Below are positions 41,060 to 44,444 of a stretch of DNA of 64,000 nt, piece after piece. The notes under the pieces are model-generated. The model had not been told where the DNA came from. It ran no database searches and saw only the letters and a list, made by a program, of their open reading frames with translations. Source of the stretch: Streptomyces sp. WAC 04229 (GTDB lineage Bacteria; Actinomycetota; Actinomycetes; Streptomycetales; Streptomycetaceae). The stretch spans positions 1 through 64,000 of the forward strand of contig NZ_QHJH01000018.1 of NCBI RefSeq assembly GCF_003947455.1, in the 5' to 3' direction. Numbering within the stretch: position 1 is the stretch's first letter; each line of letters opens with the position of its first letter. The position numbers and the translations under genes were made by a program.

Positions 41060-41344
41060 CTAGGCCGGGTTCGGCCCGCGGTGCTCCGCGGCGATGCCGA
41101 AGCGGTGGGGTTCGCGGGGCGGGGCGGCGGCCGTGTCCTGGACGCCGGCGACCGAGGTGATCACCTGTCCCTCCGACGGTTCCCCGGCCTCCTGCTCCAG
41201 GCGCTCCAGGTCGGCGGCGGAGACGAGGGCGACGAGAGGCTTGCCGTGCCGCGTGACGACGACGCGTTCACCGCCGTACACCACCCGGTTGATCAGGTCG
41301 GCGAGCTCAGCCCTGGCTTGCGTCACCGGAATCTCGTAGGCCAT
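41060..41344 (-). CDS. Phd/YefM-family antitoxin (orphan)
   Basis: A 94-residue protein. The N-terminal [19 protein letters not shown] and [24 protein letters not shown] (residues 3-50) are the Phd/YefM DNA-binding antitoxin fold; the C-terminal half is a low-complexity Pro/Ala tail instead of a clear toxin-neutralising helix. No RelE/Doc toxin gene adjoins it on either side, so it is an orphan or a transcription factor. A -10-like TAAGCT (41356-41351) lies 7 nt before the ATG, suggesting a leaderless mRNA. Confidence 0.88.
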
Positions 41345-41458: not shown

Positions 41459-41827
41459 ATGACCGGCGAACCGTCGTTCTTCGAGCTCGGCGTGGCGGAC
41501 CCCGAGCGCGGGCGGGTCTTCTACGGCACCCTGTTCGGCTGGGCCCTCGAGGCGGGCCCCACGGGGGACGGGTTCTCCATCGGCACCGCCGGGCTGCCGG
41601 GCGGCATGCACGGCGGTGACCCGGGCGCCTCCCCGTACCTGTTCTTCCGGGTCGACGACCTGGACGCCGCCGTGGCCCGGGTGCGTGAGCTGGGCGGCTC
41701 CGTCGAGGAGCTGGGCGAGGAGGGCGGGGAGGAGGCGGGGTCGGCGGCCCGCTTCGGGCGGTTCAAGCTCTGCCGGGACGACCAGGGCTCCGTCTTCGGC
41801 CTGCACGAGCCACCGCACGGGAACTGA
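41459..41827 (+). CDS. VOC-family (glyoxalase/bleomycin-resistance-like) protein
   Basis: A 122-residue vicinal-oxygen-chelate fold protein. The paired beta-alpha-beta-beta-beta pattern is visible in [23 protein letters not shown] and later [23 protein letters not shown], ending in [17 protein letters not shown]. Metal ligands are incomplete, as in many single-domain VOC proteins of unknown role. GGGAGG precedes the ATG at 41459. Confidence 0.88.
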
Positions 41828-41858: not shown

Positions 41859-41877
41859 AATGTACGTCCTGTACATT
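41859..41877. promoter_or_regulatory. Perfect palindrome upstream of the ClpP-like gene
   Basis: AATGTAC-GTCCT-GTACATT is a perfect 7+5+7 inverted repeat. TACATT (41872-41877) doubles as a -10-like element, so a bound repressor would block transcription of the ClpP-like gene that starts at 41931. Confidence 0.65.
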
Positions 41878-41930
41878 TTATGCGGAGCCAGTGCAGCCGA
41901 AGAGGGTTCCGCCACGAGGAGGGGTTCGCC

Positions 41931-42566
41931 ATGACCCGACCGCCCGCCCGACATGTCCTGCCCGAGTTCACCGAGCGCACTAGTGCCGGCTCCCGGACGT
42001 CGGACCCGTACTCGAAGCTGCTGGAGGAGCGGATCGTCTTCCTCGGGACGCCGGTCGACGAGACCTCCGCGAACGATGTGACGGCGCAGTTCATGCACCT
42101 GGAGCACCGGGCCCCGGACCGGGACATCGCCCTCTGCATCAACTCCCCCGGCGGCTCGTTCACGGCCATGACGGCGATCTACGACACGATGCGCCACGTC
42201 GCCTGCGACGTGGAGACGACCTGCCTGGGACAGGCCGGCGCCTCCGCCGCCCTGCTGCTGGCGGCGGGCACGCCGGGCAAGCGCGCGATGCTGCCCGGGG
42301 CGCGGGTGGTGCTGCGTCAGCCGTTGCTCGCCGATCCGGTGGAGGGGCAGGCGAGCGACCTGGCCATCCAAGCCGAGGAGTTGACCCGGATCCGCGCCCG
42401 CCTGGAGGAGATCCTTGTACGGCACACGGGCCGCACTCCGGCGCAGGTGACCGAGGACATCGAGCGGAGCACCGTCCTGGACGCCCAACAGGCCCTGGAG
42501 TACGGGCTGGTGGACCGGATCGTGTCCGACCGCTCGGCCGTGGCCGGCGCACCCGGCACCCGGTGA
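41931..42566 (+). CDS. ClpP-like protein lacking the catalytic triad
   Basis: A 211-residue homologue of the Clp protease proteolytic subunit. The fold is well conserved ([66 protein letters not shown]). Aligning by motif, however, the nucleophile Ser position is Ala104 (GQAGAS instead of GQAAS), the catalytic His is Arg129 (VVLRQP instead of VxIHQP) and the Asp is Ser180 (DIERS instead of DIERD). It is therefore probably inactive, perhaps a regulatory ring subunit or adaptor. GAGGAGGGG precedes the ATG. A 102-residue gene follows by 7 nt. Confidence 0.9.
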
Positions 42567-42573
42567 ACGGCCG

Positions 42574-42882
42574 ATGCTGCCACCGGAACTGCCGCCCCTG
42601 CCCGCCCTGACCCGCGCCGAGGCGCAGCTGATCGACCGCTACCTGGACGTCGTCGACCTGCTCGGGCGCATCAACCCCGCGCGGGACGGCGACACCTACC
42701 GGGGACTGCGGGCCGCCCAGGCGCTGGTCGGGAAGGCCGCGGCCCTGCGCGACGCGCTGGAGCTGATGCACGCGCGAGGTGAGACCGAACTGCACGCGCC
42801 CACCCTCGCCCGGGCCCTGCGCGTGCTGGACGGCGAGCGGCGGACGGGACGCCTCAGCCTTCCGCCGCGTTCCGAGAGTTGA
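42574..42882 (+). CDS. Hypothetical protein downstream of the ClpP-like gene
   Basis: A 102-residue, mostly helical, soluble protein with no domain I recognise; it has a Pro-rich N-terminus (LPPELPPLPALT) and a charged C-terminus. It starts 7 nt after the stop of the triad-less ClpP homologue and has only a poor ribosome site, so translation is probably coupled. A functional link with the ClpP-like protein (for example as an interaction partner) is inference from position only. Confidence 0.7.
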   Translation: MLPPELPPLPALTRAEAQLIDRYLDVVDLLGRINPARDGDTYRGLRAAQALVGKAAALRDALELMHARGETELHAPTLARALRVLDGERRTGRLSLPPRSES

Positions 42883-43134: not shown

Positions 43135-43152
43135 CCGTGACTGACGACAAGC

Positions 43153-43209
43153 CCCCGCCACAGCGGCGGGGCGGTCCGGGCGGACGCCGAATCCTGCCGC
43201 CGCCCGGAC
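43153..43209 (+). other. Two leader hairpins 5' of the riboswitch
   Basis: CCCCGCC/GGCGGGG (43153-43159 with 43165-43171) and GTCCGGGCGG/CCGCCCGGAC (43174-43183 with 43200-43209) are perfect stems directly before the riboswitch. They could be part of the leader or a terminator for upstream transcription. Confidence 0.5.
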
Positions 43210-43234
43210 GACCGGTCGCGAGGGAAGTGGATCG

Positions 43235-43400
43235 GCAGGAGTGGAGGACCCGAGCACGACGGGTCGCAGGAGCGGTCGCCCTCCGTGGGAGAGGCGCCGG
43301 ACCGAGCAGCCCTTGGGGTGAAGCCGCATGCGTGCGGCCGGGCAACTTCGCCAGCCCGAATCCGACAGGTCATCCTTCACAGGCGGCTGACGAAGGGTTG
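43235..43400 (+). ncRNA. c-di-AMP riboswitch (ydaO/yuaA type)
   Basis: The untranslated leader before the NlpC/P60 gene matches the ydaO consensus as I know it from actinobacterial leaders: GGGGTGAA at 43315-43322, the hairpin GCCGCATGCGTGCGGC right after it, then CCCGAATCCGACAGGTCATC (43355-43374) and the closing CACAGGCGGCTGACGAAGGG before the start codon. c-di-AMP binding usually turns such genes off. The family is typically found upstream of cell-wall hydrolase and osmolyte genes, which fits the downstream gene. The boundaries are approximate. Confidence 0.85.
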
Positions 43401-43403
43401 CGC

Positions 43404-43877
43404 ATGTTCGCGCTCAATCGTGTCCCGTCCCTGATGGCTCGTGCCGGTACGGCCTCGGCCCTCACTCTCGCCGCGGTGGGCGGCTCCGTCGTGGTCCCCG
43501 GTTTCTCCTCGGAGGCGGCCGCGGCGAGCCATGCGACGAAGGCCCTCAAGATCGCGGCCTCCAAGAAGGGCTCCCCCTACAGGTGGGGCGCCGTCGGGCC
43601 CCGCAGGTTCGACTGCTCCGGCCTGACGCTGTACTCGTTCAAGAAGGCCGGCAAGAAACTGCCGCGCACGGCCGCCCAGCAGTACAACAAGACCCGCCAC
43701 GTCTCGGCCAAGAAGCGCAAGGCCGGAGACCTGGTCTTCTTCCACTCGGGCCGCAGCGTCTACCACGTCGGCATCTACGCCGGTAAGGGCAAGCTCTGGC
43801 ACGCCCCGAAGACCGGGGACGTGGTGCGCCTGCAGAAGATCTGGACCGGGAGCGTCTCCTACGGCCGGGTCAAGTAG
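43404..43877 (+). CDS. Secreted NlpC/P60 cell-wall hydrolase
   Basis: A 157-residue secreted endopeptidase consisting of little more than the catalytic domain. The signal peptide ends near AAAAS (about residue 42). The NlpC/P60 triad is present: Cys in RRFDCSGLTLYSFKKAGK (about residue 70), His in VYHVGIYAGKGK (about 120) and a polar residue in LWHAPKTGDVV. It should cleave peptide stems of peptidoglycan. Expression is probably controlled by the c-di-AMP riboswitch in its leader, linking hydrolysis to turgor or envelope signals. Confidence 0.93.
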   Translation: MFALNRVPSLMARAGTASALTLAAVGGSVVVPGFSSEAAAASHATKALKIAASKKGSPYRWGAVGPRRFDCSGLTLYSFKKAGKKLPRTAAQQYNKTRHVSAKKRKAGDLVFFHSGRSVYHVGIYAGKGKLWHAPKTGDVVRLQKIWTGSVSYGRVK

Positions 43878-43937: not shown

Positions 43938-44444
43938 TCAAACGGCCCGGGGGCGCGTAGCTCTCCCGAGGGGGATGACGGCGTTCTGCCCCGCCGTCAC
44001 CCCCTCCACGGGGGCCGGCCGGCCGGGGGCGCTCCAGGGCAGTTCGATGAAGACGGTCTTGCCGCCCTCCCGCGTCGGGCGGACCCGCAGCTTGCCGCCG
44101 CATTCGGCCGTCAGCCAGCGGATGATCACCATCCCGCGGCCGTTGTCCTGCTGCACGGCGGCGGGCAGCCGCTTGGGGAATCGCGGATGGCTGTCGGTGA
44201 CGCCGATGCGCAGCCGCTCGTCACGGTCGAGGACGAGGTCCACCGTGAAGGTGGGCGACTGCCCGAGCGTGTGCTGGACCGCGTTGGTCGCCAGTTCGGA
44301 GACGATGAGCCGGACCGTGTCGGACACGTCGGCGTCCGCCGGCAGGCCCCACTCCACCAGCGTGTCGACCACATAGGTGCGCGCGGCTGCCACCGAGGCG
44401 GGATCGCTCGGCAGAGTGACGGATGCTTCCAGGTGATCGGCCAT
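43938..44444 (-). CDS. Anti-sigma-like ATP-binding protein (HATPase_c_2)
   Basis: A 168-residue cytoplasmic protein of the SpoIIAB/RsbW-like ATPase fold. The N box is IVSELATNAVQHT, and G-box-like segments are RIGVTDSHPRFPKR and QDNGRGMVIIRWL. Streptomyces have dozens of these, many next to WhiJ-type HTH and DUF397 genes. This one is divergent from exactly such a pair, so it probably belongs to that regulatory module. Whether it phosphorylates an anti-sigma antagonist or binds a sigma factor is unknown. Confidence 0.9.
   Translation of the reverse strand: MADHLEASVTLPSDPASVAAARTYVVDTLVEWGLPADADVSDTVRLIVSELATNAVQHTLGQSPTFTVDLVLDRDERLRIGVTDSHPRFPKRLPAAVQQDNGRGMVIIRWLTAECGGKLRVRPTREGGKTVFIELPWSAPGRPAPVEGVTAGQNAVIPLGRATRPRAV

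Follow-up and report, generated by a model that had tools for sequence, protein, structure and literature searches.

How does a ClpP subunit that lacks every residue of its catalytic triad persist in a genome, and what could it do there? The question is raised by a gene in a 64,000-nt stretch of DNA from Streptomyces sp. WAC 04229 (the window, here always at its full length). The host genome comprises 8.17 Mb in 464 contigs, and the closest named matches at the locus of interest are from Streptomyces. A sequence-only reading of the window had described the gene product as a ClpP homolog deprived of Ser, His and Asp, had suggested selection for a non-proteolytic role, and had proposed the small gene downstream as a candidate partner. 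According to our analysis, the protein is, by gene count, the ClpP5 of this streptomycete, and it probably serves in the cell's protein-disposal machinery as a component that does not cut. The explanation we favour, and to which we give an even chance of being right, is that ClpP5 is a catalysis-optional docking or scaffold subunit of an alternative Clp core, accompanied by a small accessory protein and gated by an antitoxin-type repressor.

Locus and paralogue type

The two open reading frames of clpP5 and its partner have the limits and the spacing given in the sequence-only reading (Table 1). Of the best 80 named loci, which we used for comparison, 71 are from Streptomycetaceae and contain the partner; the remaining 9 are ClpP2-like genes of other actinobacteria and lack it. 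The gap between the two genes measures 3 to 9 nt in the remaining loci of the set of 71, L009 excepted.

Table 1. Features of the clpP5 locus, with positions counted from the first nucleotide of the window.
Feature	Position	Strand	Description
Phd/YefM-family (antitoxin-type) gene	41060..41344	-	divergent to clpP5; PF02604 2.8e-13, TIGR01552 8.7e-17
Glyoxalase/VOC-like gene	41459..41827	+	here between the Phd-type gene and the operator-like site
Operator-like site	41861..41879	+	TGTACGTCCTGTACATTTT; two TGTAC cores; hexamer centres 9 bp apart
clpP5	41931..42566	+	211 aa; ClpP-fold, ClpP2-type subunit; almost no propeptide; triad positions A104/R129/S180; Clp-ATPase docking pocket A67/C69/H89
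clpP5 stop to partner start	42567..42573	+	7 nt
Partner gene	42574..42882	+	102 aa, helical; without family match; co-inherited with clpP5
NlpC/P60 protein gene	43137..43877	+	
HATPase_c_2 protein gene	43938..44444	-	

Some neighbors deserve a brief comment. Because the VOC-like gene has no match in any of the 71 named Streptomycetaceae loci, we left it out of the clpP5 module, to which it probably does not belong; it also stands between phd and clpP5 in the conspecific genome and, by reading, in L099. The NlpC/P60 gene is a neighbor of the module in 68 of the 71 loci; its frame as listed is 82.8% identical between conspecifics, and the listed start may be too far upstream. The HATPase_c_2 protein is, by position and family, perhaps a candidate for an antibiotic regulator of the SspH/SCO1241 type (PMC9137472). 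Searches of the clpP5 region for sigma-70-type promoters, terminators and Rfam families returned none. Neither the ClgR motif nor the first half of the PopR motif, both in the form given in PMC9775585, is present in any of the 150 clpP5 upstream regions, and we accordingly rejected these known ClpP regulon boxes as the control of clpP5.

A genome search with the Pfam cut-off yielded five ClpP genes, namely two adjacent pairs and the lone clpP5. This is the arrangement published for S. lividans, for which the available text of PMC9765437 gives clpP1P2, clpP3P4 and a single clpP5 that is reported to be monocistronic; on gene count and arrangement we therefore call the window gene clpP5. In the paralogue tree, ClpP5 falls on the ClpP2 side, away from ClpP1 (split 100/100; ClpP5 with ClpP2 98/95), and an assignment to the ClpP1 type, to whose motifs the sequence-only reading had aligned the protein, is ruled out by this split. 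The ClpP2 of the same genome (L002) retains Ser-His-Asp. A long branch on the ClpP2 side carries its ClpP4 (contig C22, L003/L004), in which the triad positions read Ser-Gly-Asp. This is common to Streptomyces ClpP4: in a sample formed by the best 30 matches among 121 genomes searched (including L224-L253), Gly occupies the catalytic His position in 30/30, and the pocket Tyr is kept in 30/30. Judged by these residues, loss of cutting with retention of the docking residue appears to occur in Streptomyces on the ClpP2 side of the Clp family. One S. coelicolor clpP allele is likewise described, in the part of PMC9067928 available, as lacking residues predicted to be critical for protease activity.

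Fold, active site and docking pocket of the window protein

The fold motifs that the sequence-only reading had found intact are indeed those of ClpP: residues 20-200 match Pfam CLP_protease (E 6.7e-64), and the predicted fold is that of ClpP. The best 50 Foldseek matches listed for the model are all Clp protease entries, headed by M. tuberculosis ClpP1P2 chains (best E 1e-26). Structural alignment with ClpP, which had been proposed as a check, gives a TMt of 0.94 against the S. hawaiiensis chain 8xn4_H (ClpP2 by similarity). Furthermore, residues 3-202 align without gaps to residues 9-208 of M. tuberculosis ClpP2. The Pfam match, this ungapped alignment and the predicted fold together rule out a chance reading frame or a misalignment.

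In the alignment with M. tuberculosis ClpP2, A104 stands opposite S110, the catalytic serine according to the available text of PMC9067928; R129 occupies the His position and S180 the Asp position, and a Ser (S105) follows the nucleophile position. All four residues had been correctly read from the sequence. Because A104, R129 and S180 replace the Ser-His-Asp triad, we do not file the window protein as an active ClpP, and by its sequence it should be non-proteolytic.

The docking pocket is altered as well. C69 and H89 are aligned with Y75 and Y95 of M. tuberculosis ClpP2, patch residues whose mutation stops growth (PMC9067928, available sections). By motif, A67, C69 and H89 can be matched to S94, Y96 and Y116 of S. 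hawaiiensis ClpP2, for which the accessible text of PMC9765437 reports that S94A, Y96V and Y116V abolished substrate turnover. The pocket tyrosines corresponding to Y75 and Y95 are thus replaced in the window protein, whereas the family has kept a Tyr at the first position and mostly an aromatic residue at the second. With C69 and H89 at these positions, the window allele is predicted to have lost docking, probably, besides cutting.

Repeated loss of the triad among ClpP5 homologs

Further loci were added to the named ones from additional genomes. Copies that were broken or truncated (15) were set aside, as were 7 duplicates, paralogues and loci that lacked a usable ClpP5, which left 150 distinct intact ClpP5 sequences, including two from a different family of the phylum. 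The set is non-random: the named sequences are those closest to the window's own, and the rest mostly stood high in the partner ranking. Within it, 55/150 sequences retain Ser-His-Asp, and 95/150 have lost at least one triad residue, i.e. one in 44, two in 43 and three in 8. The loss of all three residues, as seen in the window, is therefore rare. By position, Ser is lost in 54 sequences, His in 74 and Asp in 26. The replacements are diverse – A, G, P or T for Ser; R, Q, E, S, G, D or T for His; E, L, T and others for Asp.

On a protein tree of the 150 ClpP5 and 8 ClpP2-like rows, inferred with the triad columns omitted, the minimum number of changes is 26 at the Ser position, 18 at His and 17 at Asp; for any loss it is 23. 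These parsimony counts do not by themselves separate loss from gain. The well-supported branches require at least 9 changes for the triad-lost group, and a model of irreversible loss assigns 25 loss branches. We infer that the triad was lost in about 25 events among ClpP5 homologs.

The docking residue has a different history. A Tyr at the position of M. tuberculosis ClpP2 Y75 is present in 149/150 sequences, the window being the exception, and an aromatic residue at the Y95 position in 136/150. Among the triad-lost sequences, 94/95 have the docking Tyr, and R179 is found in 94/95 as well. The start codon lies 6 residues ahead of the mature-type N-terminus in 108/150. We therefore prefer to regard catalysis as dispensable in ClpP5 and as repeatedly lost; the pattern across the family, in which cutting was lost while the docking residue, the fold and the companion genes were kept, fits a catalysis-optional docking ring, a role that experiments support for ClpP2 elsewhere. 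In mycobacteria, the cutting activity of ClpP2 proved dispensable when it was mutated by hand, and streptomycete evolution appears to have repeated this about 25 times. With so many natural losses, the division of labour between docking and cutting can be tested from natural ClpP5 variants.

The partner protein and its co-inheritance with ClpP5

The partner has no matches in Pfam, NCBIfam and PADLOC. Its predicted model is a confident four-helix structure (pLDDT 86.8), but we assigned it to no fold family, because the best PDB match has an E of 1.0 and the Z scores of a second aligner (7.4 at most) are scattered over unrelated helical proteins.

As the sequence-only reading had supposed, the 102-residue gene is a real and conserved neighbor. 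It was found in 327 out of 392 genomes of the genus and in 286 out of the 287 genomes with a clear ClpP5, defined as a profile match at E of about 1e-99 or better, a cut-off set by hand; 64 genomes have neither gene. In 41 of the 327 partner-bearing genomes, the ClpP5 match is weak or absent: 23 lack ClpP5 judging by match count, and the other 18 match it weakly, with intact but divergent ClpP5 copies among them (L127, L144). ClpP5 without the partner does exist in one genome, G225, whose intact ClpP5 frame has Gln in the position of the His and which also contains the phd-type gene and the operator. Hence, the partner can outlive ClpP5, and ClpP5 rarely occurs without the partner. Of the two genes, clpP5 is the more easily lost, which suggests some role of the partner without ClpP5. 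In L009 (3001-3948), clpP5 and the partner form one fused frame with one G missing in a G run, which may be a sequencing error. L099 (genome G717) is a decaying module; at the same syntenic spot it has no clpP5 match and the partner in fragments, with the phd-type gene still present.

Across the phylum, the partner has matches in 14 of 396 genomes, of which 10 belong to the same genus, two form the pair L096/L098, and two are very weak. L096 and L098, from another family of the phylum, combine a triad-intact ClpP and the partner with different neighbors (by reading of the open reading frames, a gene for a response regulator and one that resembles a membrane sensor); the phd-type gene and the operator were not found at these two loci. 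Because the pair also occurs in another family and in other surroundings, the link between clpP5 and the partner is more than shared position. In a mirror-tree analysis, the partial correlation of ClpP5 and the partner, given one or two neighbor genes, is 0.35-0.45 (label permutations up to 0.26), that of ClpP5 and a neighbor given the partner 0.16-0.19, and that of the partner and a neighbor given ClpP5 0.50-0.60, which we take as weak support for coevolution of ClpP5 and the partner.

Selection after triad loss and the possibility of decay

Selection was estimated with an M0 codon model with branch classes, without site variation and under deep synonymous saturation. For ClpP5 it yields an omega of 0.072 on triad-intact, 0.100 on transition and 0.092 on post-loss branches (one omega versus two classes: 2dlnL 23). 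Given a post-loss omega of about 0.09 as against 0.07, the constraint on ClpP5 after triad loss is slightly relaxed yet strong, and purifying selection persists. For 67 near-invariant columns, defined on all 150 sequences, the departures per sequence are 0.98 in triad-intact and 1.03 in triad-lost ClpP5; when only one half of the intact sequences served to define the columns, the departures are 0.043 in triad-lost versus 0.012 in intact sequences. A plain pseudogene as the family-wide reading is rejected on the omega and near-invariant-column results. The partner has an omega of 0.065 over the tree (148 sequences), independent of the triad state of ClpP5.

The window itself is more ambiguous. 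The omega at its tip is 0.19, a non-significant rise (gain of about 0.5 log units), and the protein departs from the 67 near-invariant columns at one only, by Y69C. L103, a close relative with 79% identity, has kept Ser-His-Asp, and the conspecific genome G277 (L100) has A-R-D at the triad with Y69 and Y89 intact. Between the window and the conspecific, the 198 codons of clpP5 that were aligned contain 14 amino-acid and 12 synonymous changes (19 and 12 over all 211 codons), including Y69C, Y89H and D180S. This comparison decides little, because the omegas of neighbor genes in the same pair also vary widely on few changes, the partner with 4 versus 1 among them. Of the selected triple loss postulated in the sequence-only reading, the predicted non-proteolytic state, the conserved fold and the low omega after loss hold up, but the triple loss is not fixed. 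The reading had also named close relatives with a restored triad, combined with relaxed selection here, as evidence to the contrary; the intact triad does exist in L103, whereas the rise at the window tip is not significant.

These data bear on the first rival explanation, which we consider possible but unlikely: ClpP5 is an unneeded accessory paralogue in slow decay, which would lose the triad first, then the pocket and then the frame, with the window at a late stage and the partner as the gene that is truly selected. This is consistent with several genomes in which the partner frame is intact but the adjacent ClpP5 is broken or missing, with the changes between window and conspecific, with the mild relaxation after triad loss, and with the lower omega of the partner. 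It agrees less well with a post-loss omega that stays far below 1 over long branches, with the retention of docking Tyr and R179 in nearly all triad-lost sequences, and with the small gain at the window tip and the single departure at Y69. ClpP4, moreover, has fixed a triad loss and yet keeps its pocket Tyr throughout the sample. For the window allele, predicted to be non-cutting and poor at docking, the choice would be between a degraded allele and one whose only retained use is assembly or binding of the partner. Because C69 and H89 replace the docking residues, the scaffold model fits the ClpP5 family better than this allele, and a decaying or purely structural allele is likely in this strain.

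A divergent Phd/YefM-type gene and an operator-like site

A new observation is that clpP5 and its partner are accompanied by a Phd/YefM-type gene in divergent orientation and by an operator-like site, TGTAC/TGTACA, that is near-invariant. In the named Streptomycetaceae loci, the Phd-type gene is present and divergent in 69/71, and a GTAC pair lies within 450 nt upstream of clpP5 in 71/71. The first 50 residues of the Phd-type protein, its DNA-binding half, are nearly constant, and the C-terminal RFGIAAEHR motif is kept. The consensus of the site between the two genes is GTAC(G/A)TCCTGTACATTTTTTAC. GTAC-N3-9-GTAC occurs in 147 out of 150 clpP5 upstream regions, and the site of the window is the sole perfect match in its own genome.

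The following counts are non-independent, since the genomes are related. With up to 2 mismatches, operator matches anywhere in the genome were found for 283/287 clear-ClpP5 genomes, 19/41 genomes with the partner and a weak or absent ClpP5, and 15/64 genomes with neither; the reversed control pattern also matches some genomes, and part of the matches in the last group is therefore likely due to chance. A Phd orthologue (E 1e-20 or better; 246 genomes) is present in 179/179, 14/23 and 2/44 genomes of the same three groups. TGTACA is the core of YefM operators, where the cores are 12 bp apart (PMC7730913, PMC4803016 and PMC3303803, in the parts available); the paired TGTACA-type cores at clpP5 are near-invariant, with a spacing of 9 bp. 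No known toxin gene adjoins the Phd-type gene, whose neighbors are urease gamma and the VOC-like gene, and we accordingly rejected a filing as toxin-antitoxin system. Among the matches listed from the open-licence literature, we found no report that links ClpP5 to the partner or to a Phd-type gene. These constant companions, i.e. a helical partner and an antitoxin-type gene, offer a concrete way into the function of a ClpP that has been little studied in Streptomyces.

A model of ClpP5 function and its rivals

The scaffold model is based on the fold, the paralogue type, the triad losses, the docking residue, purifying selection, linkage and the operator-like site. From these we infer the ring partner, the docking of the ATPase, the repression and the role of the 102-residue protein, as follows. 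ClpP5 would be a ClpP2-type ring subunit with a dispensable active site and a structural job. It would join a Clp core, most likely opposite or together with a catalytic ClpP1-type ring, and would present a docking face for the Clp-ATPase; the cutting would be done by the other ring. The partner would be a co-translated accessory or adaptor of this alternative core, and an adaptor role, which the sequence-only reading had considered for ClpP5, fits the partner better. The Phd/YefM-type repressor, on its TGTAC/TGTACA site, would hold the regulator and the operon low until it is removed, plausibly by Clp proteolysis.

Several points count against the scaffold and repressor reading, namely the relaxation after triad loss, visible in both the codon model and the comparison with columns taken from half of the intact sequences, and the 9-bp spacing of the cores. 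A further one is a result from S. cattleya: ClpX together with any of four ClpPs, including a lone chromosomal one that is named ClpP3 there, shortened the half-life of an antitoxin in E. coli, as the available text of PMC4989188 states.

One may go further and regard phd, clpP5 and the partner as a three-gene, antitoxin-like switch on the cell's own protease, a proposal that we hold to be quite unlikely. Here the Phd-type protein would repress a catalysis-optional ClpP ring subunit and its helical partner through a dedicated operator; housekeeping Clp would degrade the Phd-type protein, whereupon ClpP5 would be made and would rewire or poison the core. In the manner of an antitoxin tail that binds its toxin, the RFGIAAEHR motif would contact ClpP5 or the partner. 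If this were true, the Clp protease would control its own replacement ring.

It appears improbable to us that ClpP5 is a poison or competitor, one of the roles suggested earlier, which would co-assemble with ClpP1 or ClpP2 and lower Clp activity once the Phd-type repressor is gone, with the partner tuning or relieving the effect. ClpP-ADEP provides a precedent, as an extra ClpP that disturbs the assembly of ClpP1P2 and inhibits ClpP1 (PMC12607617), and the constant linkage of the Phd-type gene and the near-constant presence of the partner would suit such a role; however, a pure poison would not need the docking Tyr that 149/150 ClpP5 have kept, and G225 has an intact ClpP5 frame without the partner. 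Finally, it is extremely improbable that ClpP5 remains a peptidase in mixed rings by means of another residue such as S105: a Ser follows the nucleophile position in 15 of the 54 Ser-lost ClpP5, but 39/54 have none there, on which ground the nucleophile shift is rejected, S105 lies off the aligned nucleophile position, and His and Asp are themselves often lost.

Comparison with known systems

Nearest to ClpP5 in sequence and fold is ClpP2 of M. tuberculosis and S. hawaiiensis. Its own catalytic serine is experimentally dispensable and its pocket is required, as reported for both species in the available parts of PMC9067928 and PMC9765437, and its pocket Tyr is the one kept in ClpP5. ClpP2 has a propeptide and, in the genome studied here, a full triad, whereas ClpP5 has almost no propeptide and many triad losses; unlike ClpP2, ClpP5 adjoins the partner and the Phd-type gene, and the window allele is without pocket tyrosines.

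ClpP4, which belongs to the back-up core ClpP3P4 of Streptomyces, shares with ClpP5 the position on the ClpP2 side, the incomplete triad and the conserved pocket Tyr. It differs in having one uniform triad loss and ClpP3 as its mate, whereas ClpP5 has many different losses and stands with the 102-residue partner. ClpP-ADEP of S. hawaiiensis is, like ClpP5, an extra Streptomyces ClpP, and it remodels the housekeeping Clp core; in contrast to ClpP5, it is ClpP1-like, takes the place of ClpP1 in an active core and is encoded near an antibiotic cluster (PMC12607617).

With yefM-yoeB and phd-doc loci, the clpP5 module has in common a Phd/YefM-family gene and an operator-like site with TGTACA core. 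It departs from them in having no known toxin, in the divergent operon of clpP5 and partner, and in cores that are 9 instead of 12 bp apart.

ClpR of cyanobacteria, plastids and apicoplasts resembles triad-lost ClpP5 as a ClpP-fold protein without the triad. Plastid Clp cores also contain small accessory ClpT proteins; to our knowledge, ClpR systems have no Phd-type regulator and no relative of the 102-residue partner. ClpR belongs to a different lineage, and the likeness is an analogy drawn from triad loss, our trees having been built without ClpR. Non-cutting ClpP subunits are established in plastids and cyanobacteria, with ClpR as a triad-less, ClpP-fold member of the core (PMC7966870, PMC6508832, available sections). 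By analogy, then, ClpP5 may be related both to ClpR and to mycobacterial ClpP2.
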